Under the pieces are notes generated by a model. That model worked only from the letters and a program-made list of their open reading frames with translations, did not search any database and was not told the origin of the DNA. A program made the translations under genes and the position numbers. A DNA stretch of 49,725 nt from Halobacteriovoraceae bacterium (GTDB lineage Bacteria > Bdellovibrionota > Bacteriovoracia > Bacteriovoracales > Bacteriovoracaceae): positions 1-49,725 of the forward strand of contig PASP01000006.1 of NCBI GenBank assembly GCA_002712005.1. The letters run 5' to 3'. Below, piece after piece: positions 6,293-21,575 of the stretch; position 1 is the first letter of the stretch; each line of letters opens with the position of its first letter.

Positions 6293-7511
6293 CTTCGATT
6301 TCATCCTTCTTTTTAGGAAAGCTTTTAAACTTCCCATTATCAATATGTCCACAGGTTCTTACGGTTCCACATCCAATGATTCGACCAGTTGTTCCTGGAC
6401 GATTATAGAAGGCCACATACTCTCCTTGTGGAATGAGACCAACAAATCTCTCTTTAAACTCTATCTTAGCGTGACCATTATTGAGAAAGTAGAGATAGGC
6501 CGGCTGTATTTCTGACTTTTCTCTTGTTTTCACATAGACTTCAAGAGGTCTACTCGTATCTGTCCCAATGGGATAATAGACTTCCGTTAGAAGAAGAAGA
6601 TCGTATTCTAAATCTTCTTCCATTCCCACATAAACGGTTCCGGCGGTATATTTAAAACCAATAACCATATAATTCTTATCAATAAGAGAGCCGGAATTAT
6701 TTTTAATACTCTTACTTCCTAATGAAAACTCGTGAATCCCGCTATGCTCACCAAGAAAAGCATCATTGCGATAATCAATGATATGTCCTGTCTTAAACAT
6801 CTTGGTGGGCATACGGTCAGCCACAAAATGACCTAAGCTTCTTCTCTCCATTAGAGGTTTAATATTACTTTCCTCTAAAAAACTTAATTTTAATCCTTTT
6901 CCAATTTTCTGAACTTCTGCTTTTCTCATATCAGACAGAGGAAGACGTACCATAGAGAGAATTTCTTCTTTTAAACCTGAGAGGAGATAACTTTGGTCGT
7001 GATCAAGATCATGGGAAACAAATATATGTGAGGTTTGAGAAGCTTGATTTTTTACAATCTTAGAATAATGTCCAGTGGCTATATACTGAGCTCCAAGAAC
7101 AGATGCTTTCTTTGCCAAAACTTCAAATATTAAACTGGTGGCATTGACCTTGGGAGAAAAACTTCTCCCTCCAGCACGAGCTGCAACAACATAGTCGGTG
7201 ACCCTGTCTTTGTACTCAATCGAAGCATCCACAGCATAGAAAGTTATACCCAATGAATCTGCTAACTCTTTTACAGGATCAAAACCCTCTAGATTGTATA
7301 TTCCTTCAAAAGGAGCAGGAGTGATTTCTTCTCCATTTTCATCATAGCGTTTCCTGAGGGTTTCCGCAGCTTTAGAGCTAAAGGTAATCCCAAGGCCTAT
7401 CACTTGGAATCCTTGTCTCTTTAATAGGTATGCAGCCACCACAGAGTCTAAGCTGCCATTAAAGCCACATACAATTTTTTGACCCTTTGTCTGCTTTTTA
7501 AAACTTTCCAA
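6249..7511 (-). CDS. MnmA-like paralogue lacking both catalytic cysteines
   Basis: This 420-aa protein aligns with MnmA along most of its length: an altered PP-loop (GFNGSLDS at 16-23 in place of GMSGGVDS), the ATGHYSKI motif at 145-152, and DLDHDQSYLL matching DSRKDQTYFL. The first catalytic Cys position (NPDILCN in MnmA) is Asn123 here, and no Cys exists in the region of the second. The only cysteines are C15 and two near the C-terminus. It may still bind tRNA and ATP, but it is unlikely to be a standard thiouridylase. It starts with TTG, with GAGG five bases before it, and overlaps the M28 peptidase gene at its end. Confidence 0.8.
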   Translation of the reverse strand: MESFKKQTKGQKIVCGFNGSLDSVVAAYLLKRQGFQVIGLGITFSSKAAETLRKRYDENGEEITPAPFEGIYNLEGFDPVKELADSLGITFYAVDASIEYKDRVTDYVVAARAGGRSFSPKVNATSLIFEVLAKKASVLGAQYIATGHYSKIVKNQASQTSHIFVSHDLDHDQSYLLSGLKEEILSMVRLPLSDMRKAEVQKIGKGLKLSFLEESNIKPLMERRSLGHFVADRMPTKMFKTGHIIDYRNDAFLGEHSGIHEFSLGSKSIKNNSGSLIDKNYMVIGFKYTAGTVYVGMEEDLEYDLLLLTEVYYPIGTDTSRPLEVYVKTREKSEIQPAYLYFLNNGHAKIEFKERFVGLIPQGEYVAFYNRPGTTGRIIGCGTVRTCGHIDNGKFKSFPKKKDEIEDEESEVIDIYKFKF

Positions 7512-7638
7512 ATGGACCTCTAAACCTTCGATTTATATATGAAATTATTATATCAGAACTTCAGAAACCTAGATTTTCGATCAATTATTTTAGGCAGAAT
7601 CTTCCCTATAAATTCAGCAAATCCTTAAATTTATTCTC

Positions 7639-8394
7639 ATGAGCACCGATAAAGGATTGATGACTATAGGCCAGGCCAGTTTTAGGCCAGAAATTATATT
7701 CTTTGAAAATGATCAAAAGAAGTCTCACGGGACTCTTAAGAGATTTCTCACTTTCTTGAAAGTAAAGAGAGTTCCAGGGCCTATTCGTTTTGCTTTCATT
7801 GATGAACTTGGACCTATGATTCCTAATCTAAGTCTTAGAGAGAATATAAGTCTAGACTCCATTCCGAGCACAGTGAGTTCAGATAAAGAATTTAGTTTAG
7901 AAGATTATTTAGAGAGAAGAGGAAATGAACCTCTTACTAAACTCTATAATAATATAAAACTTGTAGAGGACTTCCCCAGTGAAGTTGATTCTCAAACCCT
8001 AAAAATAGCCTCTTTGATTAAGGGCCTTCTTCAAGACGGCCAATATCTCTTTTTAGAAAACCCCGAGCGCTTTCTCGATAAAGAGAATCTAAAATTATTT
8101 ACGGAGGCCTTACTCCTCCAACTTAAACAAAAGAAACAAACTCTCCTCTTAAAGAGTTCTTCTCCTGCTATCTGGGCCCCTCATGTTACGCAGTGGATAA
8201 AAGAATCCACATGTCCAGAGACCGGTAGAATCCACATGAACCACATGAAAAAGGGCACTTCCTCTGCGCCACAGCAAAATGATAGGGCCACTGTGCTTCC
8301 CTTGAAGCAGAAAGAAGGGCCTGTAAGTACGCCTGCTGCAAGTTCTCATGAAGACCAACAAGCAGAAAATAACTCTGAACCAAAAGCTGCGTAG
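7639..8394 (+). CDS. Degenerate ABC-ATPase-like protein without Walker A
   Basis: This 251-aa protein has no strong family match that I can name. It resembles the back half of an ABC ATPase: a Q-loop-like piece (FIDELGPMIPNLSLRENI at about 55-72), then a helix in the signature position (SQTLKIASLIKGLLQDG) followed by a Walker-B-like strand (QYLFLENPERFLD). There is no Walker A GxxGxGK[ST] and no LSGGQ. The C-terminal 60 residues are low-complexity (Ser, Gln, Pro, Glu, Ala). A 12-bp direct repeat (8202-8213 and 8227-8238) lies at the start of that tail. Nucleotide hydrolysis is therefore unlikely, and a regulatory or structural role is possible. Confidence 0.6.
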   Translation: MSTDKGLMTIGQASFRPEIIFFENDQKKSHGTLKRFLTFLKVKRVPGPIRFAFIDELGPMIPNLSLRENISLDSIPSTVSSDKEFSLEDYLERRGNEPLTKLYNNIKLVEDFPSEVDSQTLKIASLIKGLLQDGQYLFLENPERFLDKENLKLFTEALLLQLKQKKQTLLLKSSSPAIWAPHVTQWIKESTCPETGRIHMNHMKKGTSSAPQQNDRATVLPLKQKEGPVSTPAASSHEDQQAENNSEPKAA

Positions 8395-8444
8395 CAATAG
8401 AATCTCCCCTTCTTTCTTCCCTAAAAATCTATAATTTTCAATAG

Positions 8445-9806: not shown

Positions 9807-10550
9807 ATGAAAGGTACATTTCATATAGCCGGCCAATCCCTTGAAATCACCCTAGATAAGCAAGTGTGGAATAACGATGATATTCTCACAGGAAAGCTTC
9901 ATCTTACCTCTCAAGCTGAACTCGATGCGGATAAGATATTGGCCTTAAATCTTTGCGAAATCGATTTAAGAAAACTAAAGAAGAAAGATCCCAAGGCCTT
10001 TCAAAGCCTACAAAGAATTGAACTGAATTCGGGAACTAAAGAATATGATATCCATCTCGATCCCAACCAATTGGGTCATCTCCACGTTATTAGCGATGGC
10101 GTCTTTAGTGTTGCTGTCGTCATTGAAGAGAATAACAACCTCTTAGATGCTCCTCAGCTTCAACTTCAAATTAAACCTTCTCCCGTGATTGATGAATTCT
10201 TAAAGATATTTGAAACATTTAAAAGATGCTCCATTAAATCCATTAAAAATAAGAAGAAAGAAATTGAAGTCAAACTAAAGACACCCACTACCGGAGAAAT
10301 GGCCAAAGTAGACTCTCTTGCCCTTCTTATTAATCTTCAAAATAAAAATCTAAAACTGACCTACCAATTTCAAATTAAGAAAATCGTAATGGGTGGTGCC
10401 GGTGTTGAGACCAAGAAAGAAAAGATTAAAGTCGTTCAGGAACTTGAAGAGAAGGACTTTATGAGTTTTGGTGAACTCGATCAACAAAAGTGTCTCTCAA
10501 AAATAGATCAGGCCTTTCAATCGGCGCTTGAAAACTCTGCGGCTTCGTGA
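9807..10550 (+). CDS. Unknown cytoplasmic protein, beta-rich N-terminus
   Basis: This 247-aa protein has no signal peptide or membrane segment. The first ~130 residues look like a beta-sandwich (short alternating strands, with VWNNDDILTGKLHLTS resembling the early strand pattern of arrestin/Spo0M-type domains), but the resemblance is weak. The second half is very Lys-rich and charged, consistent with nucleic-acid or membrane-surface contact. It starts 37 bp after the methyltransferase, so the two are probably co-transcribed. It is not a recognisable nuclease. Its end overlaps the convergent exporter gene by 34 bp. Confidence 0.55.
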   Translation: MKGTFHIAGQSLEITLDKQVWNNDDILTGKLHLTSQAELDADKILALNLCEIDLRKLKKKDPKAFQSLQRIELNSGTKEYDIHLDPNQLGHLHVISDGVFSVAVVIEENNNLLDAPQLQLQIKPSPVIDEFLKIFETFKRCSIKSIKNKKKEIEVKLKTPTTGEMAKVDSLALLINLQNKNLKLTYQFQIKKIVMGGAGVETKKEKIKVVQELEEKDFMSFGELDQQKCLSKIDQAFQSALENSAAS

Positions 10551-12409
10551 AGTTTAGCGAAATGCCCTTGTCCGGAGAAGAGCTCCTCTCTGGTCCCCTT
10601 CTCAACGAGACGTCCCTGATCAAAGACCATAATCTGATCACAACTCTCAAGAGTGGCCAGACGGTGAGCAATGATTAAGCAGGTACGTCCATCCATGACT
10701 GCATCAACGGCCTTATGAATAAGGGCTTCATACCAAGGATCAATATTGGCAGTAGCTTCATCTAAAATAAGTATGGAAGGATTATTGATTAAAACCCGGG
10801 TAAGAGCGACTAGCTGACGTTCGCCAACAGAGAGATTTGCTCCCGCATCATAAACAAGAGAATCGAGGTCTTTATTCTGAGCCGCCATGGCCTTAGTCAA
10901 CCCGGTTATCTCACACGCCTTTAGAATTTCTTCATCTCTTAGACTTTCATTTACGGTCAAATTCTCTCTAAGAGTTCCCTTAAAAATGATGGCATCTTGA
11001 CCTACAAACCCAATATTCTTGCGCAAAGATGAACGCTCAAACTGACGGATATCTTGTCCATCTATAAGGAGTTCACCCTTTTGAAATTCATATAAACGTG
11101 ACAGAAGACTCACCGTTGTTGTCTTCCCACATCCAGTTGTTCCCACGAGCCCAACTTTCTGGCCGGTCTCAATTTTAAATTGAAGGCCTTTAAGAACCCA
11201 GTTTTCTCCACTATAGGCCATCCAAAGATCTTTAAATTCAATTTCCCCTTGAAGGCCTTCTACTAGTTGAGTTCCATCTTTTCCTAGACTAACTTCCTCT
11301 TCATCATGATTTAAGAAAGAGGCAACTCGTTCAGTACTGGTAAAGGCCTGCTGGATAACATGAACTTCTCGTGCCAAATTCATAATAGGCATATAGAAGC
11401 GCTCACAATAACGGATAAAGGTAACAAAGAGCCCCACCTGCATACTTCCCTCAAGAACTCGCGCTCCTCCAAACCAAATAAGAACTAAGAGTGGCGCATT
11501 ACAAAGTAGAGAGACAAGAGGCCTAGTCCAACCATAGAGAAAGTTGGCCTTCAGGTGACCTGTTCTATATTCTTCAACTTGATGGTCATATTGTTGCTTT
11601 GACCAATCCTCTAGGCCATAACTTCTAATCACTTCAAGCCCATTGATAAATTCAGATAGCTTCGCATTGAGCATACTGCTGGCCTTGGATAGACGTCGAT
11701 TGGCCTTCCTGACCCAACCTCTCGTTATATAAATAAAAAGAAGCGATGGAAGAATACTGATAATCAACATACTTCCGAGTTTGAAGTCAGTAACTAACAT
11801 AGCGACAATGGCCAGTGTGGCCATAAAACCTGAATTAAGGAGGCGACCCAAGCTTCCGGTAAAGAAGTTTTCAATTCCCTCCACGTCATGAGTTACTCTT
11901 GTAACGACGCGCCCTTGAGGTTGACGATCATAGAATCCGATTGGAAGTTTTTGGAGGTGCTCAAAAAGGGCCAAACGAACGGCATAGATGGATAAACCAC
12001 TATTTAAAGAAATAAGTCGGCGTCCCAACCACATAAAGATCAGTGAACTCACCTCTAGGCCCAAAATACCTAGAGCAAAACGATAGGCCGAAGAAGAGTC
12101 TGCGGGAATAAGCCCTTCTTCGACTAACTTCCCCATGAGCCTTGCAGAGGCCAGAGCACAAAGAGAGCTTCCCATGATGAGAAAGAGTCCCATAAGTAGA
12201 CCCTTCTTATATTCGGAGGCATAGGTCAGTAGCTTTTTAAAAGAAGCGAGATCAGAAAGTGAAAAGGACTTCAAGGACTGATCGTCTTGTTCATCAGCCA
12301 AGAGAAAACTCTTATTCACCTGTTCAGACTTCTTCTGATCGCCTTTACTCTTCACACTCGCTTTTGCGGTGTTATCTAATCGTGATTCATTCTTCTTTCT
12401 TTTAACCAA
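10517..12409 (-). CDS. ABC exporter subunit, MdlB type
   Basis: This 630-aa type-IV ABC exporter half has a six-helix membrane domain (about residues 70-350) fused to an ATPase domain. Walker A is GTTGCGKTT, the signature is LSVGE, Walker B is ILILDEATANID with the catalytic Glu present, and the H-loop is IIAHRLAT. It pairs with the next gene upstream, whose catalytic Glu is replaced, as in MdlAB/BmrCD-type heterodimers where only one ATP site is fully active. The N-terminus has about 55 extra charged residues. The start is TTG (12409) with AAGGA nine bases upstream. The substrate is unknown (lipid, drug or peptide are the usual ones). Confidence 0.88.
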   Translation of the reverse strand: MVKRKKNESRLDNTAKASVKSKGDQKKSEQVNKSFLLADEQDDQSLKSFSLSDLASFKKLLTYASEYKKGLLMGLFLIMGSSLCALASARLMGKLVEEGLIPADSSSAYRFALGILGLEVSSLIFMWLGRRLISLNSGLSIYAVRLALFEHLQKLPIGFYDRQPQGRVVTRVTHDVEGIENFFTGSLGRLLNSGFMATLAIVAMLVTDFKLGSMLIISILPSLLFIYITRGWVRKANRRLSKASSMLNAKLSEFINGLEVIRSYGLEDWSKQQYDHQVEEYRTGHLKANFLYGWTRPLVSLLCNAPLLVLIWFGGARVLEGSMQVGLFVTFIRYCERFYMPIMNLAREVHVIQQAFTSTERVASFLNHDEEEVSLGKDGTQLVEGLQGEIEFKDLWMAYSGENWVLKGLQFKIETGQKVGLVGTTGCGKTTTVSLLSRLYEFQKGELLIDGQDIRQFERSSLRKNIGFVGQDAIIFKGTLRENLTVNESLRDEEILKACEITGLTKAMAAQNKDLDSLVYDAGANLSVGERQLVALTRVLINNPSILILDEATANIDPWYEALIHKAVDAVMDGRTCLIIAHRLATLESCDQIMVFDQGRLVEKGTREELFSGQGHFAKLHEAAEFSSAD

Positions 12410-12447: not shown

Positions 12448-14205
12448 TCACACCTCAAATTCAATAAGGGTATCGCAATACTTTAAAGTAGACTTTCTAT
12501 GGGCTACCCAGACCAGTGTTTCCTCTTTAAGGTTTTCATTGAGAAGAGATAATATTTTCTCTTCAGTAATGGTATCCACCGCACTTAAACAGTCATCAAA
12601 GAGATAGATTTCACATTGTCTGGCCAAGGCACGGGCCAAGGTAAGCCTTTGCTTTTGACCACCTGAAAGATTGATACCCCACTCACCAAGTGGTGTATCT
12701 AAACCGTGTTTAAAGCTTCTAATATCTTCATCTAAGCAAGAAAGTTTTAAGTAATGCCAAACCTCTTCATCACTCATTTTCTTGTCGAGAGTGATATTGG
12801 CCCTAATTGTATCAGCAAAGAGAAATGGCTTTTGTGAGACATGGCCAATTCTTTTACGGAGTTGTTCGTGAGTATATTCAGAAAAGGGACGATCAAAGAA
12901 AGTGAGACTTCCCTCAAAGTCACGAATAAGTCCAGATAGGATTTTAATCAAGGTACTCTTTCCACTACCAATAGGTCCTGTAATACCAAGACGTTTCCCA
13001 GCGTGTAACTCGAGATTAAAATCTTTGATCAGTTCCTCAGAAGAATCATTGAAGCGAAAAGTGAGATTCTCTAATTGATAGACAACTTGAGATTGAATCT
13101 CTTGATCATCTTGATCTTCTCTTTTGATTACTTTTGGCCTTACCTGATCATCATAGGCATCTGCGAGGTGAGGATCTTTTTCTTGTTGAAAAATTTCATC
13201 TAATCGCGACAAACTGGTAAATGATTTCTTCCACTCAGAAATAATAAAGCCCAATTCAAATAGAGGATCTTGAAGTAAGAAAATAAGCCCTTGCATGGCC
13301 ACAAAGTCACCAATCGAGAGAGTGCCCTCCATAACAAAGGGAATTCCAATGAAGAAGAGAACCACATAGCTCACAATGGAAGAGGAGCCCATGACAGGTA
13401 TATATCTTAAGGAAGTATATACGGCATCAAGACGTTTTAAACGATAGGCATCGGCAATCGCCTTAAGTTTCTCATACCAGAAGTATCCCGTTTGATTCAC
13501 CCTCTGAAGACGAATAGTAGATACCACCTGTGTGGTGAGATCATTAAACTCTCCTAAGTTTTCTTGGGCAAGACGGTACTTTTCCATCTCCATGGCCGAT
13601 AGTTTACGAATAAAAACCGGAAGGATAAAAAGAATAGCAAATGCATAGAGAGTTAAAGGAATATGAATGGTAAGCATAGTTCCTAAAGTAAAAATCCCTA
13701 AAAAGACGACATCAAACATTCCCACGAGGGTGAAACCATAAATAAAGCGCCCCGAATTAACATCTGAAGTACTGGCATTCATCAGCACTCCCTTAGAGAA
13801 GCGCTTTACTAAATCATCTGTTTTGAAAAAACGAACGTGACGCCATAATTCTGATTTAAGTTCACTAGAGGCCTTATGAGTCTGACGGGCCATGGTTAGA
13901 CGCCATCCCATTCTAAAAAAGAAAAGAAGAACTCTAAAAGCAATTACGGTTATAAAGAGCACAAAGAATATCTCTTTTCGCTCATGTGCTCCCCATTCAT
14001 TAAAAATTTCAGGAATAGGCTTCTTAGCAAAGAAGTCTAAAATCCATCCCATGGACCTCGTCACCAGAACTTGAAAGAGATCTGTTAAAATGACAAAAAG
14101 GATACCAAGAGAATAAATTGGCCAATTAGATAAGATATATTGAATCCAACTTTTCTGAGCATTTCGATAATGTTTTGAATGGAGTTGTTCGGCTGATGAA
14201 GACAT
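12448..14205 (-). CDS. ABC exporter subunit, MdlA type with degenerate catalytic site
   Basis: This 585-aa ABC exporter half has Walker A GPIGSGKST and a canonical signature LSGGQKQR, but Walker B ends LFDDCLSAVD: Asp takes the place of the catalytic Glu, as in MdlA-type subunits (LDDALSAVD). The H-loop reads VAHRKST. The protein is expected to form a heterodimer with the downstream MdlB-type subunit (38 bp away), with one consensus and one degenerate ATP site. Six membrane helices occupy about residues 25-310. It lies 71 bp after the lipoate ligase gene in the same run, which may or may not share its transcript. Confidence 0.88.
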   Translation of the reverse strand: MSSSAEQLHSKHYRNAQKSWIQYILSNWPIYSLGILFVILTDLFQVLVTRSMGWILDFFAKKPIPEIFNEWGAHERKEIFFVLFITVIAFRVLLFFFRMGWRLTMARQTHKASSELKSELWRHVRFFKTDDLVKRFSKGVLMNASTSDVNSGRFIYGFTLVGMFDVVFLGIFTLGTMLTIHIPLTLYAFAILFILPVFIRKLSAMEMEKYRLAQENLGEFNDLTTQVVSTIRLQRVNQTGYFWYEKLKAIADAYRLKRLDAVYTSLRYIPVMGSSSIVSYVVLFFIGIPFVMEGTLSIGDFVAMQGLIFLLQDPLFELGFIISEWKKSFTSLSRLDEIFQQEKDPHLADAYDDQVRPKVIKREDQDDQEIQSQVVYQLENLTFRFNDSSEELIKDFNLELHAGKRLGITGPIGSGKSTLIKILSGLIRDFEGSLTFFDRPFSEYTHEQLRKRIGHVSQKPFLFADTIRANITLDKKMSDEEVWHYLKLSCLDEDIRSFKHGLDTPLGEWGINLSGGQKQRLTLARALARQCEIYLFDDCLSAVDTITEEKILSLLNENLKEETLVWVAHRKSTLKYCDTLIEFEV

Positions 14206-14276: not shown

Positions 14277-15293
14277 TTAACCTAATTGCAAGGACTCAGA
14301 TATTTGACGCAACTGACCAGCAATCTTGACTCTTTCCGCTTCCTCACAATCTTGAAAATAAGGATGATGCAGTAGAATTTCAAAAGAAGGCCATGACTCT
14401 AATGCTCTACGGACTGACTTATCTACAAAGAAGAGAAGCTCTGAAATACTCTCCTCTCTTTTTAAGTAGGCCTTCTCACATTTTCCTTTAAAAAGACTAA
14501 AGTGGATTGAAACACTCTGAGACAACTCAACTTCTAGCTCAAAACGCGGAGTTTCTCCCCATAGCCAGCTCCATTCACTTAATAACTTTCTCTCCTCATT
14601 GATGGCCGCATTTAGACCTTCTTCTCTCCATATAAAAGCATCCGTGTTAAATAGATTTTCAAAGGCCTTGTACCAATCTTCAAAGCTTAAATTTCCAAAG
14701 ATATCTGATAAATTAATCACGGGAGAGGATACAGAGCGAACCCCCTTACCTTCAATCTTCCAATGTTTAGGATGACCAAGAGAGCCCCTCAAGTCTTGAA
14801 GTTTTGCATCCATAAGAAGTGTACCATGATGGAGAGACGTTTCTTTCTTTTGCTTAAATGCAGAACCCGATACTTTGAAAATCGACTCCCCTCCCTCTTC
14901 TTTACTTTCTCTATAAACTAAATCATACCTATCATTGGCCTCAACTTGAAATCCTAAATGATCTAGCGCTGCTATAATGAGTTCTAAATTCTTCTTTCGA
15001 GGAAGATCCCGCTGTTTATGAATAAAGCAATAATTCCAATTACCGAGATCGTGATAGACGGTTCCTCCTCCCGATCTTCTTCTAACGAGAGAGATATTTT
15101 TAGGAAGTTGAGAAAAATTGATTTCTCGCCAAGGAACTTGGAAGCGACCCATAACAATTGAGGGGTCATTTCTATAGAGAAAGAGATGATTCTCTTCAGG
15201 GAAATGACCTTCGATGAGATAATTTTCTATGGCAAGATTCGTATAAGGGCAATGGATGGAAGAAATACTCAATCCATAATCAAGGGGATTCAT
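14277..15293 (-). CDS. Lipoate-protein ligase A family protein
   Basis: This 338-aa member of the biotin/lipoate ligase fold would attach lipoate (via lipoyl-AMP) to E2 and GcvH-type proteins. The key motifs are RRRSGGGTVYHDLGN (about 71-85), KVSGSAFK (about 140-147) with the conserved Lys, and HHGTLLMD. The length matches LplA with its C-terminal accessory domain. It starts within TAATG shared with the stop of the upstream envelope-protein gene (1-nt overlap), implying translational coupling to genes with no obvious link to lipoylation. Confidence 0.9.
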   Translation of the reverse strand: MNPLDYGLSISSIHCPYTNLAIENYLIEGHFPEENHLFLYRNDPSIVMGRFQVPWREINFSQLPKNISLVRRRSGGGTVYHDLGNWNYCFIHKQRDLPRKKNLELIIAALDHLGFQVEANDRYDLVYRESKEEGGESIFKVSGSAFKQKKETSLHHGTLLMDAKLQDLRGSLGHPKHWKIEGKGVRSVSSPVINLSDIFGNLSFEDWYKAFENLFNTDAFIWREEGLNAAINEERKLLSEWSWLWGETPRFELEVELSQSVSIHFSLFKGKCEKAYLKREESISELLFFVDKSVRRALESWPSFEILLHHPYFQDCEEAERVKIAGQLRQISESLQLG

Positions 15294-16060
15294 TAGAAGG
15301 CAACTCCAAGACTAATGGCCAAGGGAACAAAGGATTTTAATTTTCCTAGAACAAAGTATTCCGCTCCTACATTGAGATTCACATACTTCCATTGCCAAAA
15401 ATAAGAGGCCCCAAGAAGTGGTCCCCACTTATTCTCCCCTTGATTTATGACTGTTTCACCTTCTACCTCTAGTCTCTCCACATCGACATCGGAGGCCAAT
15501 TGATTATAGTGAGCTCCTAACTTGATGACCGGTCCATTACGAAAGGCCTTCTTCTGAGAATTTAAGTAGAAATTAAATTCTAAAGAGTAGTGATCGAGAC
15601 CTGGTACAATACCGTCATTGCCATTTCCATTTTCTGAACCATAATAGGCCCCATAGAAGCGACCATAGTAGAGACCAGCTGATATCTGACTCCATAAAGA
15701 TTTTTCTAGACCTATTTTGTTAAGATGCCCTAGGTATCTATAATTGAAACCTAGGCCAAGACTAGGAATGTAGCGCTCATCATCTGGACTATCATAATGA
15801 TAGAGAGAAGTATTTTCTTTATGAGAAGCTTTCTTCTCATAAGTAAATGAATCCTCTGAATAACTTAGAGGACTCTTTTCATAATTTTCTTTTTCATGCT
15901 CCGGATTGAATTGCTTATGATCAATCGCTTGGTTAACAGGAGCTTCTTCATTACTCATTTGTGTCTCTTCAACAGAGGCCAGAGGACTATCGACTACGAG
16001 GATTTGACCGAGAACCAAAAGGAGCGATAGAAAAGATAAATATTTCAATTGATTTCTCAT
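15293..16060 (-). CDS. Exported probable outer-membrane beta-barrel protein
   Basis: This 255-aa protein has a signal peptide (SFLSLLLVLGQILVV, cleavage about residue 28). A polar, disordered-looking stretch (about 30-95) is followed by alternating amphipathic strands rich in Tyr, Gly and Phe (GLGFNYRYLGHL, SAGLYYGRFYGAYYG, LEFNFYLNS) and a hydrophobic terminal strand ending LAISLGVAF, which has the aromatic C-terminal residue typical of barrels. An outer-membrane location is therefore inferred. It overlaps the previous gene by ATGA (4 nt) and is the last of four unknown envelope genes. Confidence 0.65.
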   Translation of the reverse strand: MRNQLKYLSFLSLLLVLGQILVVDSPLASVEETQMSNEEAPVNQAIDHKQFNPEHEKENYEKSPLSYSEDSFTYEKKASHKENTSLYHYDSPDDERYIPSLGLGFNYRYLGHLNKIGLEKSLWSQISAGLYYGRFYGAYYGSENGNGNDGIVPGLDHYSLEFNFYLNSQKKAFRNGPVIKLGAHYNQLASDVDVERLEVEGETVINQGENKWGPLLGASYFWQWKYVNLNVGAEYFVLGKLKSFVPLAISLGVAF

Positions 16061-17154
16061 TGGTCCACACTCACTTTAAGATTGAGAAGTTTTGCCTTAG
16101 CACCCAGGACAATGGAAGGAATCCTTACAGGTGAATCTTCATTTTCCTCAGAGGAATCTATAACACTTGCGATCCCACTTCCCACTTTATTTATACCTGG
16201 AAGAGCAACGGCTGAGTGGAATTCAAAATTAATTTTATCAAAGACAGTACTTGTATCAACGAGAATAGAGACACCTTTCATATCTACCCATAGGGGACTG
16301 GCCTTTAGATCATCACGCATAAAGTAGGAATCAATAGAGCGCGGAATATCTCTATGAATCTGATTTAAATCATTCACTAAGAATTCAAAACCTCCAAGAA
16401 GCTTCACAGGTTCTTTAATGAAATTCTTCGCTTTTCTCATTTGCTCCGTCTTTTCAATATCTTCGAAATAGAATTCACTTCCATGAGCAATCACGACTTT
16501 AATAATTTCTTCAACGGTTGCATCTGATTCAGTAGCAACTTCATTAATGGGAATTTCTACGCCTCGATCGGGATGACGAGCAAAAATTTGAGCAAAGAGC
16601 TTACCACTTTTACGTCCAAATCTTATTTTTTTAATTTGTTCGATAATATCTCGCACTTCCGGACCCACTTCCATTTCAGCAAGGTTTTCGAACGCCCCAA
16701 TCAGCATAAGTATATCTTGCTGACCCATTTCATACTCACCGATCTCTGCCATATATCTTAGAATATAAAGAGTCAGAGTAAGAGAATCAGATACAGAATA
16801 TTCTTCACTTACCCCCTTGGCCACATGATAGATACCTGTTGCGACAGTACCCATTTGTTCACTATTAAGTCCTACATTACCTAGAATCGCCGTATCTTCA
16901 CTTGAGATCTCTTGTGTTTGAGTACCAGGCAAAGAAGATGAACTTGGTAACTCTTCATTTACTTCTTCTTGAGTAGGAATACGCTTTTGTGCGGAAAAAG
17001 AAGATGAGGGATGTGACGATCCCATTGAATCATTGAGATCAGTAAGCCCAAAGTTTCCACCATAAACACGGACCATCGTTAAACTCAATACAACAACGAG
17101 AGTAACTCCAAAGATTAAGTTGAAATAATGTATCAATCGGTTGAAAAGGGCCAT
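16057..17154 (-). CDS. Membrane-anchored envelope protein of unknown function
   Basis: This 365-aa protein has one N-terminal membrane segment (about residues 12-30, LIFGVTLVVVLSLTMV), so most of it should lie in the periplasm. A Ser/Pro/Glu-rich linker follows (about 45-80), then a helical acidic domain. I chose the ATG at 17154 because GAGGTGA, a near-perfect Shine-Dalgarno, lies 8 nt upstream; a GTG at 17166 is also possible. It overlaps or nearly abuts the genes on both sides, suggesting one coupled operon with the 1080-aa exported protein and the barrel-like protein. No family is recognised. Confidence 0.6.
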   Translation of the reverse strand: MALFNRLIHYFNLIFGVTLVVVLSLTMVRVYGGNFGLTDLNDSMGSSHPSSSFSAQKRIPTQEEVNEELPSSSSLPGTQTQEISSEDTAILGNVGLNSEQMGTVATGIYHVAKGVSEEYSVSDSLTLTLYILRYMAEIGEYEMGQQDILMLIGAFENLAEMEVGPEVRDIIEQIKKIRFGRKSGKLFAQIFARHPDRGVEIPINEVATESDATVEEIIKVVIAHGSEFYFEDIEKTEQMRKAKNFIKEPVKLLGGFEFLVNDLNQIHRDIPRSIDSYFMRDDLKASPLWVDMKGVSILVDTSTVFDKINFEFHSAVALPGINKVGSGIASVIDSSEENEDSPVRIPSIVLGAKAKLLNLKVSVDQ

Positions 17155-17158
17155 AACT

Positions 17159-17488
17159 CTACTCACCTCTATTCTCCTTCTGTCTTAGGCTTTCTTTATT
17201 ATGTTTTAAAATTTGCGAAACTACGGAATAGGTTTTTTGACTATAAAGAGCATCTGAATAATAAGTATAATTCCAGTCCGTAGGTCCCTTATTAAGAATC
17301 GATTCATTCTTCTTAAGAAAATGAGTTTCATAAATTTCCAAAAGAGGAGATATAAATCGTTCTTGAAGTTCTCTAGACTTATTTTTCATATCTAGTAAGT
17401 AAGGAACCTCACGGTTTATATACTCTAATTTTCCAATAACTTGATCTAAACCAGACTTTAAGAAATAAGCTGAAGCTAAGAAATACAT
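17159..17488 (-). CDS. Small protein of unknown function in envelope operon
   Basis: This 109-aa protein has a short hydrophobic N-terminus (MYFLASAYFLKSG) and is then helical and charged (GKLEYINREVPYLLDMKNKSRELQERF), with a Tyr-rich middle (YTYYSDALYSQKTYS) and a basic tail. The N-terminus is too short for a confident signal peptide. It sits 15 bp after the 1080-aa exported protein gene and ends beside the next start, so it is firmly part of the four-gene set. Confidence 0.55.
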   Translation of the reverse strand: MYFLASAYFLKSGLDQVIGKLEYINREVPYLLDMKNKSRELQERFISPLLEIYETHFLKKNESILNKGPTDWNYTYYSDALYSQKTYSVVSQILKHNKESLRQKENRGE

Positions 17489-17503
17489 GACTTCTACCCC
17501 AGC

Positions 17504-20500
17504 TCATGTAATCATCCTATTATTAAATTCAGCAGAAGTGATTCCAAATTCTTCGTTGATTTGACTATGAATGGCCTGTATTAATCGATCATCCGTTTTC
17601 ACCACTTCTTGAACACCTTGATAATAAGATAATACTTTCTTAAGGCGATGAAAGAGAGATAATTTACTATAGTCAGAATTGTGGATGGCCCTGTCGTATA
17701 GAACGAGAAGTTCTTCATCCGTAACTTCAGAGAGTGAACGTTCGGCAACAAGATCACTAAAGAGTGCTTTAGAATCTTTCATAATATCAACAAGAGCACC
17801 CTTATCTACTGCGGCCATATTACCTGATGTCGAGAAATGAAAAAGAATAGAGTCATCTTTCTTTGAAATAACTGTACCAATTTTCTTCCCACCAAAGACT
17901 TGATTTCCAACACTTCTAATATCAAAGGCAGCACTTAAAATATGAGGATTCAATTGAATAAGAAGTTCTTCACGATGAGTAAGGACTTTAGCATAACGAT
18001 TGATCTTAATCCCACCCAATTCAACTTTGCCATTCTTAGTTGCTTCCGTAGAGTGGAGATATTTTTGGATAAAGTCTAAGGCCAAAACTTTTGCCTTTTT
18101 GGCCAAAGAATTTCCTTTAAAATCAACCTTTCTTGCAACTAAATTTATCGCCTTATCAAGAAGTCCAGTATCCCCTTTTATCTGTAAACCAACCGACTCT
18201 AAATCAATAGAGAGAACCTCATCTCCAAAGAAAACTTCATCAGGAGCAAGAGTTAATTGATTCTTATACTTTTCTAAAGACTCAGTTGTCAGATTGATCT
18301 TTGCCCCCACTTGAAAGGCCTTCTGTTCAACCTTAAATTCTTCAGAAAATAGTCGTGCTAAAAGACCATTCTTCTTTTTCTCCACCACCTGAACGGTCAT
18401 ATTGAGAAGAAGACGATTATCCGAAGAAGCTGAAATATTGAGATCTCTCATAAGATAGTGAGATTGTTCCCTATCTTCTCTTAAGAGCTGAGACACTTCT
18501 TTAAGTTGCTTATCCGAAGCATCTGAGAAGATTTGATTAATAAAGTTCTCGAAATAAGAAAAGCTCATTTCCGTAATCAAGTCACTTGGAGCTGTTTTAT
18601 TTTCAAGGGAAGTTCCTGAGAAGTTTTCAGAGTCCTTCTTCTCTTGCCTTTCCGAAATATAATCAATATAGGTCTTAGAACGAACTCCTTCTCCAATAGA
18701 GGCCTCTAAGAACACTTGATTTAAACTTTGATCATAGAGACTTTCAATATTCCAAACTTGAAGTTGATTCGAAGTTTCATATATTTTCTTTGCTGCAATC
18801 TTAGGATCAACTTTAAAAAGCATTAATCCAGTTGAGTCATCATAAGATATAAGATCTTCAAAAAGATAGCGAACCTTTGTGGCCACTTCCTGACTTCCCA
18901 CTTGATTGAATGGATTCTTAGCAATATCAATTTCAGCTAATTTAACAAGTTTAAGCAGTTGGTCTTCAGCACTTTGTTGAAATTCTGTAGCCGTATATTT
19001 TGCATACTCTAACGCTTGAATTTGAATTTTATTGAGGGTCTCTTTAAAGTAGAGATCATTATCACCACTTTGTGAGTCACTCTCTTCAGAAACAAGTGAA
19101 GTATCTGAGGAATCATCCATTGCCATTGTGGTAAGGGCCTCTACTAAGGCCATCTTTGTCCACTTAATCATAATTTGAGCATGACCATTATTAGCCGATA
19201 GATTCATTTTTTCGCTACCCGAGAGAATAGAGAAATTTTGAATATCAACTCCAAGTTCACCGTTATCAAACATATGAAATCTCAGAGAAAGTTCAAACGG
19301 AAGGGCCTTATTCCAGATATCTTTAGAGATATGCCATGGTGTATTTCCCCAGTCTATTCCTTCCCCTTCTAGACCTAATTCCATAAAAGTTCTCACATCC
19401 ATATTCATGAGACCTCTAAGAATGACCCCTGGAATCTGGGGTGCAAGTACAACGTCTAGTTCAGCAAAGAGCTCCCCTTGATCAAAGTTAAAGTCACGTG
19501 CAAATCTAATTCCTTGAGAAAGAGAACGTTGAGATAATTTCTGAGTAAGAAGGGGTAGACCTTGATGATCTGCACTTCCTCCATGCTCGATACGATATTG
19601 GGCCAAAGATTGCTTTTTCATCATAACCAATTCACTAAGGATCAACGCCTTGGTTTCTTCTTTAGTATTGTCATGGCCCCAAATGGGATCTGCACTGAAG
19701 ATAGGATTATCGATAGAAAGACCGGCACTAATCTTCGCTCTCATCTTTCTTTGAAGTTCTTCAAAATCATTCTCTTGATTTCTCTCCCAAATAGGGAAAT
19801 TTAAAGAATTCTTTGTTACAAGTGCATAGGAATAGAGCTCTTCGTACATCTTTTCACTATTTCCTAATTCTATATAGAGCTCTTTCTTAGCTTCTTTAAG
19901 ACTTTGAGTTTCTCCTTCTCCTCTTTTTGAAATAGCATCAAACCAGGCCTGCCCAGGTTTCCCTAAACCTGCTTCCATTTGAAGAGCCGCTATATCAGTC
20001 CCCTTTAAAAGCACAGGATAAAGATTCCACAAGCGAAATTCAGTTAAGCTCGCATAAGAAGAGAGAACGCCAATTTTTGAAAAGTCTAATTTGAGATAGA
20101 TACTTTGATTTCTAATCATGATCTCTTTGCTATCAAAGAGCTTCTTTAAGCGAAGAGAATCTCTATCCTCAGATAAACTCTCTTGTGCTTGTGAACCAAC
20201 CGACTCCGGCCCCTCTAATATCCAATCCATTAAAGAGGTTTGAGATAAGAAACTTACTAGAAACTCACCAATGCGAGTAACTCCAGATGTATAGTCTTGA
20301 CCACCAATATTGAGTTCTACGACTTTAAAAACAACATAGGAAGACACGCTCAATTTTTGAGCAGAGGGAAATTCTACAATTAAACGAAACTTTTGCTCAC
20401 TACTGAATACTTCTCCCCCAGCAATCTCATCCATATCACGAACTATATCTTGAGGAATAAGGGCCGATCCTTCGATTAAGAGATTCTTCGCCATAGGATC

Positions 20501-20746
20501 TAATTTGAAGCGAGTGATTTCTTTTAAATAACGTTCAGGATATTCTTCCGAAGCAACTAAGTAGTCCGATAGAATATTTTGAATGAGAGTTTCAGGAAGA
20601 GTAAGTCTTACGAGCCCCTCTTCTGTCACTTGTCCTTGAGCGGGATTGATAGTGACAGAGGGATCACTTACCTTACTGTATGAAGGTTGGACGGCCATAA
20701 AAAATATGGTCAATAGGCCAATAAAAGTAAATTTTATTGAATGCAT
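17504..20746 (-). CDS. Very large exported protein of unknown function (1080 aa)
   Basis: The protein begins with a signal peptide (KFTFIGLLTIFFMAVQPSYS-K, about 24 residues) and has no further membrane segment, so it should be periplasmic or surface-exposed. It has essentially no cysteines. Long stretches alternate hydrophobic and polar residues (for example QLSVSSYVVFKVVEL-like strands) separated by amphipathic helices; this pattern is compatible with lipid-binding elongated periplasmic proteins (TULIP/AsmA-like), but that is only a guess. An acidic Ser-rich patch lies near residue 545. It heads an operon of four unknown envelope genes, 89 bp after the SecF-linked gene. Confidence 0.65.
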   Translation of the reverse strand: MHSIKFTFIGLLTIFFMAVQPSYSKVSDPSVTINPAQGQVTEEGLVRLTLPETLIQNILSDYLVASEEYPERYLKEITRFKLDPMAKNLLIEGSALIPQDIVRDMDEIAGGEVFSSEQKFRLIVEFPSAQKLSVSSYVVFKVVELNIGGQDYTSGVTRIGEFLVSFLSQTSLMDWILEGPESVGSQAQESLSEDRDSLRLKKLFDSKEIMIRNQSIYLKLDFSKIGVLSSYASLTEFRLWNLYPVLLKGTDIAALQMEAGLGKPGQAWFDAISKRGEGETQSLKEAKKELYIELGNSEKMYEELYSYALVTKNSLNFPIWERNQENDFEELQRKMRAKISAGLSIDNPIFSADPIWGHDNTKEETKALILSELVMMKKQSLAQYRIEHGGSADHQGLPLLTQKLSQRSLSQGIRFARDFNFDQGELFAELDVVLAPQIPGVILRGLMNMDVRTFMELGLEGEGIDWGNTPWHISKDIWNKALPFELSLRFHMFDNGELGVDIQNFSILSGSEKMNLSANNGHAQIMIKWTKMALVEALTTMAMDDSSDTSLVSEESDSQSGDNDLYFKETLNKIQIQALEYAKYTATEFQQSAEDQLLKLVKLAEIDIAKNPFNQVGSQEVATKVRYLFEDLISYDDSTGLMLFKVDPKIAAKKIYETSNQLQVWNIESLYDQSLNQVFLEASIGEGVRSKTYIDYISERQEKKDSENFSGTSLENKTAPSDLITEMSFSYFENFINQIFSDASDKQLKEVSQLLREDREQSHYLMRDLNISASSDNRLLLNMTVQVVEKKKNGLLARLFSEEFKVEQKAFQVGAKINLTTESLEKYKNQLTLAPDEVFFGDEVLSIDLESVGLQIKGDTGLLDKAINLVARKVDFKGNSLAKKAKVLALDFIQKYLHSTEATKNGKVELGGIKINRYAKVLTHREELLIQLNPHILSAAFDIRSVGNQVFGGKKIGTVISKKDDSILFHFSTSGNMAAVDKGALVDIMKDSKALFSDLVAERSLSEVTDEELLVLYDRAIHNSDYSKLSLFHRLKKVLSYYQGVQEVVKTDDRLIQAIHSQINEEFGITSAEFNNRMIT

Positions 20747-20834: not shown

Positions 20835-21575
20835 CTAGGCCAAAAGTGTTTTATTGGCGATGTGAAGAAAGGGGGAAATTTCCGTATAAAAGAAGCCCAC
20901 AAAGAGAGCTAATCTCAGGGTAAAAAAGAAGAGCCATCTTTTAAAATGAGTTCCAAGACCAGCGGACTTGGCCTTATGGGCCTTCTTCACTATAAAGGCC
21001 ACCAGCCATATGGCGACATTAATAATGAAAAAGAGAAGTAATTTGGACTTCTTCTCTAAAATAGAAAAGAATTGAGGTATGGCGATAGGATCTCTTAAGC
21101 TTTGAACGAGGAAGTCCATGAGTTTAGGAAATTGAGTGAGTAAGGAGCCTACAGGATTTCCAGAAGTCTTGGCCAAGAGATGCGCCCTTAATTCTGTTTC
21201 ATTCATGGCCTGAAAACTCTTGAGAGAAACCGCGACCATTTGTTTCATTTGCTGAGTGGAGCCGCTCTTTAAAGACTTGGTGAGCTCTTCAGTCAAGGCC
21301 TTAACCTTTTCTTGATCGCCTGCCTTAATGGCCTCTTGTAAGGCCTGAGTTTTCTTGAGTTGATCAGGAGTGATATTTTGTACCACTCCTTCTTGATCTT
21401 TGCGGAAGTCTTCGAGTTGAGATTCGAGGGCCTCTAGGTCCCTCTCGTCTTGATCAACAAAATCTTCGGCTCTTAATACAGATGAAGAAACGAGATTCAT
21501 CAACAGAAAGAGCCCAGTAAGAAGTAGATTAGAAATGCGTAAATTAAGCTTTAACACCTTCAGCTGATCCCTCAT
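20835..21575 (-). CDS. Membrane protein with coiled-coil domain, linked to secF
   Basis: This 246-aa protein has an N-terminal signal or anchor segment (LLLTGLFLLMNLVSSSVLRA), then a Glu/Lys-rich coiled-coil region (about 38-100, DLEALESQLEDFRKDQ and following), and two C-terminal membrane helices (LLLFFIINVAIWLVAFIV and WLFFFTLRLALFVGFFY). Its start lies 32 bp inside the end of secF, so it is likely translated together with the Sec accessory subunits. Whether it works with SecDF is unknown. I do not recognise the family. Confidence 0.6.
   Translation of the reverse strand: MRDQLKVLKLNLRISNLLLTGLFLLMNLVSSSVLRAEDFVDQDERDLEALESQLEDFRKDQEGVVQNITPDQLKKTQALQEAIKAGDQEKVKALTEELTKSLKSGSTQQMKQMVAVSLKSFQAMNETELRAHLLAKTSGNPVGSLLTQFPKLMDFLVQSLRDPIAIPQFFSILEKKSKLLLFFIINVAIWLVAFIVKKAHKAKSAGLGTHFKRWLFFFTLRLALFVGFFYTEISPFLHIANKTLLA

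Follow-up and report, generated by a model that had tools for sequence, protein, structure and literature searches.

A predicted exported multi-TULIP protein encoded by an interrupted gene in a probable envelope operon of Bacteriovoracaceae

The 49,725-nucleotide stretch analyzed here (the window; contig PASP01000006.1 of a Halobacteriovoraceae bacterium, assembly GCA_002712005.1) encodes a large protein, BIG, which we propose to be an exported multi-TULIP lipid binder of the periplasm, encoded within an envelope operon. We give this statement as a whole a probability of roughly 0.55. How lipids travel between the two membranes of diderms is a live question, and bacterial TULIPs are known mostly as one- or two-domain families without established function.

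Results

Organization of the gene block

The preliminary description had placed four translationally coupled genes at 15293-20746, between secDF and the lipoate ligase gene. All four minus-strand ORFs and their tight spacings were present (Table 1). The 1080-aa and 109-aa ORFs are separated by 15 nt, the 109-aa and 369-aa ORFs overlap by 8 nt (a 4-nt gap if the latter is read from the ATG at 17154 instead), and M369 and Barrel255 overlap in ATGA. The spacing stood and the gene count did not, since the 1080-aa and 109-aa ORFs are one frame and the block has three genes. Nor does the block end at 15293: the TAA of Barrel255 overlaps the ATG of lplA (TAATG), and lplA is followed by ABC2 after 71 nt and then by ABC1 after 38 nt. 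The block is probably the upstream half of a six-gene envelope operon consisting of BIG, M369, Barrel255, lplA, ABC2, and ABC1. Promoter and terminator scans gave results no better than shuffles.

As for the two flanks, the lplA neighbor recurs in relatives, and the secDF flank is peculiar to the window; secDF adjoined BIG in none of the other neighborhoods examined. The immediate upstream neighbor of the block is in fact a 246-aa gene located 88 nt away (20835-21575). Its product is predicted to be a membrane protein and belongs to no known family, and the gene shares 32 nt with the end of secF. The gene was not found beside BIG in the neighborhoods of relatives.

Table 1. Positions of the features in the window
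Feature	Position	Strand	Basis or remark
BIG, 1195 codons + stop	17159..20746	minus	Same frame across TGA; single frame in relatives
Predicted signal peptide of BIG, ~residues 1-24, ...QPSYS/K	20675..20746	minus	Sequence and alignment; cleavage site judged by eye
U1, residues 40-300	19847..20629	minus	TULIP-like by duplication; hhalign vs U2
U2, residues 392-712, with helical insert	18611..19573	minus	TULIP-like; AlphaFold model and Foldseek/VIA matches to LBP, CETP, BPI
U3, residues 716-1005	17732..18601	minus	TULIP-like by structure only
Helical C-domain, residues 1006-1195, cut by TGA	17162..17731	minus	Alignment and AlphaFold model
In-frame TGA, BIG codon 1081	17504..17506	minus	GGA/GGT/GGC in three nearest relatives
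1080-aa ORF of the preliminary description	17504-20746	minus	
109-aa ORF of the preliminary description	17159..17488	minus	ATG internal to BIG C-domain; without signal peptide
M369	16057..17166	minus	369 aa from GTG, 365 aa from ATG at 17154
Barrel255	15293..16060	minus	255 aa
LplA, lipoate-protein ligase	14277..15293	minus	PF21948, E 2.4e-49; conserved part of block
ABC exporter subunit 2 (ABC2), fused permease/ATPase	12448..14205	minus	Conserved neighbor
ABC exporter subunit 1 (ABC1)	10517..12409	minus	Nearest MsbA-type models; conserved neighbor

BIG is one gene interrupted by a stop codon

The 1080-aa and 109-aa ORFs share a reading frame and are separated only by the TGA and the five codons that precede the ATG of the 109-aa ORF. 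In a protein search, the BIG homologues of 15 relatives each consisted of a single open frame (1118-1200 aa) in which the 109-aa part is included, and every full-length Bacteriovoracaceae homologue examined was open at the TGA site. The two ORFs are one gene. The ATG of the 109-aa ORF corresponds to an internal Met that is usually conserved among relatives; given this start and the lack of a signal peptide, it is unlikely that a 109-aa protein is made and exported separately, and the earlier view of the 109-aa product as a gene of its own gives way to a C-terminal part of BIG. A single stop codon can thus make an annotation display two genes where relatives have one.

The region downstream of the TGA holds five invariant positions of BIG (G1083, E1085, Y1139, N1147, and W1158, all in the C-domain), and the T-x-x-G-x-E motif that spans the TGA is kept even in the two-unit homologues of other families. 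Identity to the nearest relative was 41% downstream of the TGA vs 46% in the rest of BIG. That relative has GGA at the site, from which TGA differs by one base. Two other stops were seen among BIG homologues, a TAA within a frameshifted stretch (genome G095) and a TAA at a natural end (G080); both differ in kind from the TGA, which is accordingly private to the genome of the window. The nonsense change would remove the last ~115 residues of BIG there, so the gene may be impaired in this genome.

The TGA may reflect a genuine mutation, in that case probably a recent one, or a base error. That the codon arose by base calling or assembly and that the gene is intact is a substantial possibility, a little short of even odds, and would be compatible with a lipid-binding BIG. 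It is in keeping with the single-base difference from GGA, with the lack of any other damage in BIG, and with a divergence that is not accelerated relative to M369; against it, the TGA is a substitution rather than an indel, and it lies in an assembly of 20 contigs that is 97.5% complete. A functional TGA, acting by programmed readthrough, by reinitiation to give two products, or as selenocysteine, would also be compatible with the proposed role, and we consider it highly improbable: the 109 downstream codons are intact and conserved about as in relatives, a stem-loop follows the TGA, and two separate chains make up the family protein in locus L105 (where the split lies at another place and each chain has an export signal), but the TGA is private to this genome, the aligned residues are G, T, N, A, V, or S and never Cys or Trp, 13 of 200 shuffles equal the stem-loop, and a 109-aa product would be without an export signal.

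The stem-loop itself (17430-17510, -19.5 kcal/mol) begins at the TGA and covers the start of the 109-aa ORF. Selenocysteine was rejected, as no Cys occurs at the aligned column and SelA was not found in the genome of the window (97.5% complete) by a search that was positive in the E. coli control.

Domain structure of BIG

The TULIP fold is an alpha/beta barrel in which a long helix is wrapped in a curved sheet, arranged as a tandem pseudo-dimer in BPI-type members; TULIP domains of the BPI/CETP/SMP kind have a hydrophobic pocket and bind lipids. The read-through BIG protein was modeled with AlphaFold from 16 sequences (mean pLDDT 72, pTM 0.62), and the model contains repeated strand/helix patterns followed by a helical C-domain. 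When the model was compared with the PDB by Foldseek, the top match was lipopolysaccharide-binding protein (LBP; E 6.2e-4, probability 0.98). The next matches included further TULIP proteins, namely the TMEM24 SMP domain (rank 3, E 0.1), SPLUNC1, Mmm1 (rank 11, E 0.44), and BSP30, which were weaker and mixed with unrelated entries, and the TM-scores were low over the whole chain. In VIA-align, CETP aligned with residues 394-977 of the model (Z 8.0, 294 residues, chain 5-465), and BPI aligned with the same part (264 residues) at Z 7.2, each over nearly the whole two-barrel target, in a tool for which a Z under 8 can reflect a common arrangement. The helical C-domain gave generic helical-bundle matches.

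Sequence profiles gave a second view of the repeats. A duplication relating U1 and U2 was detected by hhalign at P of about 1e-6 to 1e-5 (~9e-6), with reversed controls at 0.03 or worse; its core (212-278/638-703) had P 1.6e-6. Duplication of U3 from U1 or U2 was not detected by sequence profile comparison. From the model and these comparisons, a TULIP fold in BIG appears likely, with at least two and probably three TULIP-like units ahead of the helical C-domain. The preliminary description had recognized none of the families in the block. This agrees with the lack of Pfam and NCBIfam matches for the three real genes and is amended by the predicted placement of BIG in the TULIP superfamily. 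The BIG family had no Pfam, NCBIfam, or PDB-chain sequence match; in particular, 16 family members gave no match to DUF4403 (PF14356) at E <= 1 (profile threshold 28.3 bits), and there was likewise no match to the YceB/DUF1439 and LBP_BPI_CETP Pfam families at E <= 1, nor a Pfam match to AsmA/TamB profiles.

The same findings bear on a different reading, in which BIG has a structural role in the periplasm, for instance as a scaffold, resembles TULIPs by chance, and does not carry lipids. The moderate confidence of the model, the low whole-chain TM-scores, the long helical inserts, and the absence of a sequence match to any known lipid-binding family are all in line with such a protein. Chance resemblance, however, sits poorly with the appearance of several different TULIP families among the best-ranked matches in two structural comparisons and with a beta/alpha order that repeats along with the sequence duplication, and we regard a scaffold as unlikely.

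Homologues with two units (~570-662 aa) occur in two other Bdellovibrionota families (genomes G039, G305, and G054). In G054, locus L105 also contains a 281-aa exported protein that matches U1, encoded just upstream of the two-unit gene with an ATGA overlap. These genes indicate that U1 and U2-U3 are separable modules that were joined in Bacteriovoracaceae. As a separate observation, the N-terminal ~30 residues of the G054 two-unit homologue (VVIASEAKQSHRGSDEITTGFF..., L105:6246-6400) match at least five other places in that genome at 63-80% identity; this dispersed repeat is translated in-frame, in front of what is likely the true signal peptide.

The members of one deep-branching clade (L015-L017) carry a lipobox-like signal in place of the plain signal peptide, by which BIG would be tethered there to a membrane, probably the outer one. 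Outside this clade, BIG looks soluble.

Other products of the block

The preliminary description held the products of the block to be exported, which agrees with the prediction for all three real genes. M369 is predicted to be an exported protein with an N-terminal hydrophobic helix, a disordered linker, and a conserved alpha/beta domain ending in LKVSVDQ. It had been described as a membrane-anchored 365-aa protein, but in most relatives the N-terminal helix looks like a normal signal peptide, and the family as a whole is therefore not characterized by an inner-membrane anchor. The alpha/beta domain was predicted with good confidence (pLDDT 80) and had no structural match at E <= 0.001 and none with Z >= 5, which does not in itself show a new fold. 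Profile comparison did not detect homology between M369 and the BIG units, neither M369 nor Barrel255 had a Pfam or NCBIfam match, and no M369 was found on plasmids. The C-terminus of M369 (16060-16090 in the window) is a nearly fixed LKVSVDQ/LKTSIDQ in almost all members and looks like a recognition tail.

Barrel255 has a signal peptide, a variable region of ~75 residues, and a C-terminal outer-membrane-barrel-like domain ending in F, sequence features from which it is a putative outer-membrane barrel. ABC1 scored 353.9 bits against the MsbA-type model TIGR02203, for which the cut-off is 602.

Conservation in relatives

A profile search found BIG in 31 of 129 genomes of the same family. M369 was present in 30 of 369 genomes of the phylum, all of them within the family of the window, and only 11 loci yielded a barrel-family gene. 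A contig scan with the single 1080-aa sequence gave no match, and a scan with the alignment gave 14 named loci. The order that recurs in Bacteriovoracaceae is BIG, M369, sometimes the barrel, lplA, ABC2, and ABC1. BIG and M369 were adjacent in 14 loci from at least eight genera, down to about 30% identity, with spacings of -62 to +33 nt by longest-ORF coordinates, and the ABC pair adjoined M369 in nearly every locus of sufficient length. A GT51 transglycosylase gene lies upstream in many of the relatives' loci.

Scattering of the genes in relatives would have spoken against a functional block, and the comparison gave a mixed picture: the BIG-M369 pair was linked in the 14 loci, and elsewhere the genes were partly scattered, with BIG away from both M369 and the ABC genes in 16 of the 29 members of the BIG tree. 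Across the 129 genomes, 19 had both BIG and M369, 12 BIG only, 11 M369 only, and 87 neither (Fisher p 8e-8, uncorrected for kinship; p 9e-4 by genus). One complete genome of a Halobacteriovorax-like genus (chromosome of 3,435,933 bp) contained M369, and BIG was not found in it. If this genome is that of H. marinus SJ, predation as such would not require BIG. On the BIG tree, the linkage state changed 4 times vs 9.8 with shuffled labels, which suggests that the linkage is probably old and was lost several times.

These data also bear on the proposal in the preliminary description that four separate coupled proteins (a soluble periplasmic protein, a small linker, an inner-membrane anchor, and an outer-membrane barrel) form a trans-envelope apparatus. 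The tight spacing, the predicted export of the three real products, the BIG-M369 linkage kept in 14 loci, and the ABC genes nearly always near M369 accord with part of it. On the other hand, the 109-aa ORF corresponds in relatives to the C-terminal end of BIG and lacks a signal peptide, the anchor and the barrel are not conserved, BIG and the barrel are often absent or elsewhere, and the genes are unlinked in many genomes. An apparatus of this composition is very unlikely.

Two further features of the neighborhoods were noted. A pectinacetylesterase-family (PF03283) gene lies on the opposite strand beside M369 or the barrel, mostly just before lplA, in nine loci that do not include the window (L049 at 7442-8419, L050, L053, L065, L090, and L092-L095). 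Some genomes carry two M369 copies (G006, in loci L062 and L063; G013, G082, G083, G109, G110, and G111); in G006, each copy is accompanied by a barrel and an ABC pair, and one of them lacks lplA.

Discussion

Proposed role of BIG

In the multi-TULIP reading that we prefer, BIG would be a periplasmic binder of lipids or of other hydrophobic molecules. It might pass this cargo between the outer membrane and the inner membrane, the expected site of the ABC exporter pair. On the outer-membrane side, some BIG proteins are apparently lipid-anchored, and the small barrel may be a partner there. We infer the lipid binding, the direction of transfer, and the partners alike. Lipid export or uptake would fit the recurrent neighbors of BIG, namely an exported helper and the pair of ABC exporter subunits. 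It is not obvious what LplA would do in lipid transfer, which counts against the lipid-carrier reading.

A more specific version would be a pathway particular to Bacteriovoracaceae that takes lipids from an MsbA-like ABC pair by way of M369 to BIG, as a three-TULIP periplasmic carrier, and to an outer-membrane barrel. This full sequence of steps is doubtful. If it is true, lipids would pass between the membranes by a TULIP-based route that model diderms are not known to have, and this route might serve envelope remodeling or the uptake of prey lipids.

Comparison with known systems

MsbA-type exporters are the closest models to ABC1; ABC1 and ABC2 differ from MsbA in being a two-gene pair, and ABC1 falls below all curated cut-offs shown. 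YhdP is a bridge protein grouped with AsmA/TamB and is a proposed inter-membrane lipid conduit. The AsmA/TamB bridge proteins have been proposed to be such conduits in bacteria (PMC6791001). These bridge proteins are unlike BIG in being built from Chorein-N and a beta-groove and not from the TULIP barrels predicted for BIG.

Published bacterial TULIPs include YceB, DUF4403, DUF2140, DUF2993, and P47/OrfX, and a periplasmic or outer-membrane location has been predicted for some bacterial TULIPs (PMC6791001). DUF4403 (PF14356) is a pseudo-dimeric bacterial TULIP that is exported in diderms and often predicted to be an outer-membrane lipoprotein (PMC6791001). BIG resembles it in being an exported diderm protein with two tandem predicted TULIP domains, and differs in being more than twice as long, in having probably three units, helical inserts, and a unique C-domain, and in giving no hmmscan match. 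A DUF4403 search of 144 Bdellovibrionota genomes gave no match, but the control genomes were also without a match.

SMP-domain lipid transfer proteins such as TMEM24 and Mmm1 share the TULIP fold predicted for BIG, although they are intracellular membrane-contact proteins and their match E-values were weak. The best structural matches were the eukaryotic TULIPs BPI, LBP, and CETP, whose two tandem barrels cover residues 394-977 of BIG. Unlike them, BIG has a probable third unit, inserts, and a C-domain, would reside in the bacterial periplasm, and has no detected sequence similarity to them. A three-unit TULIP-like protein encoded with an ABC exporter pair in a predator-containing lineage would be a testable counterpart of the eukaryotic lipid-transfer proteins.
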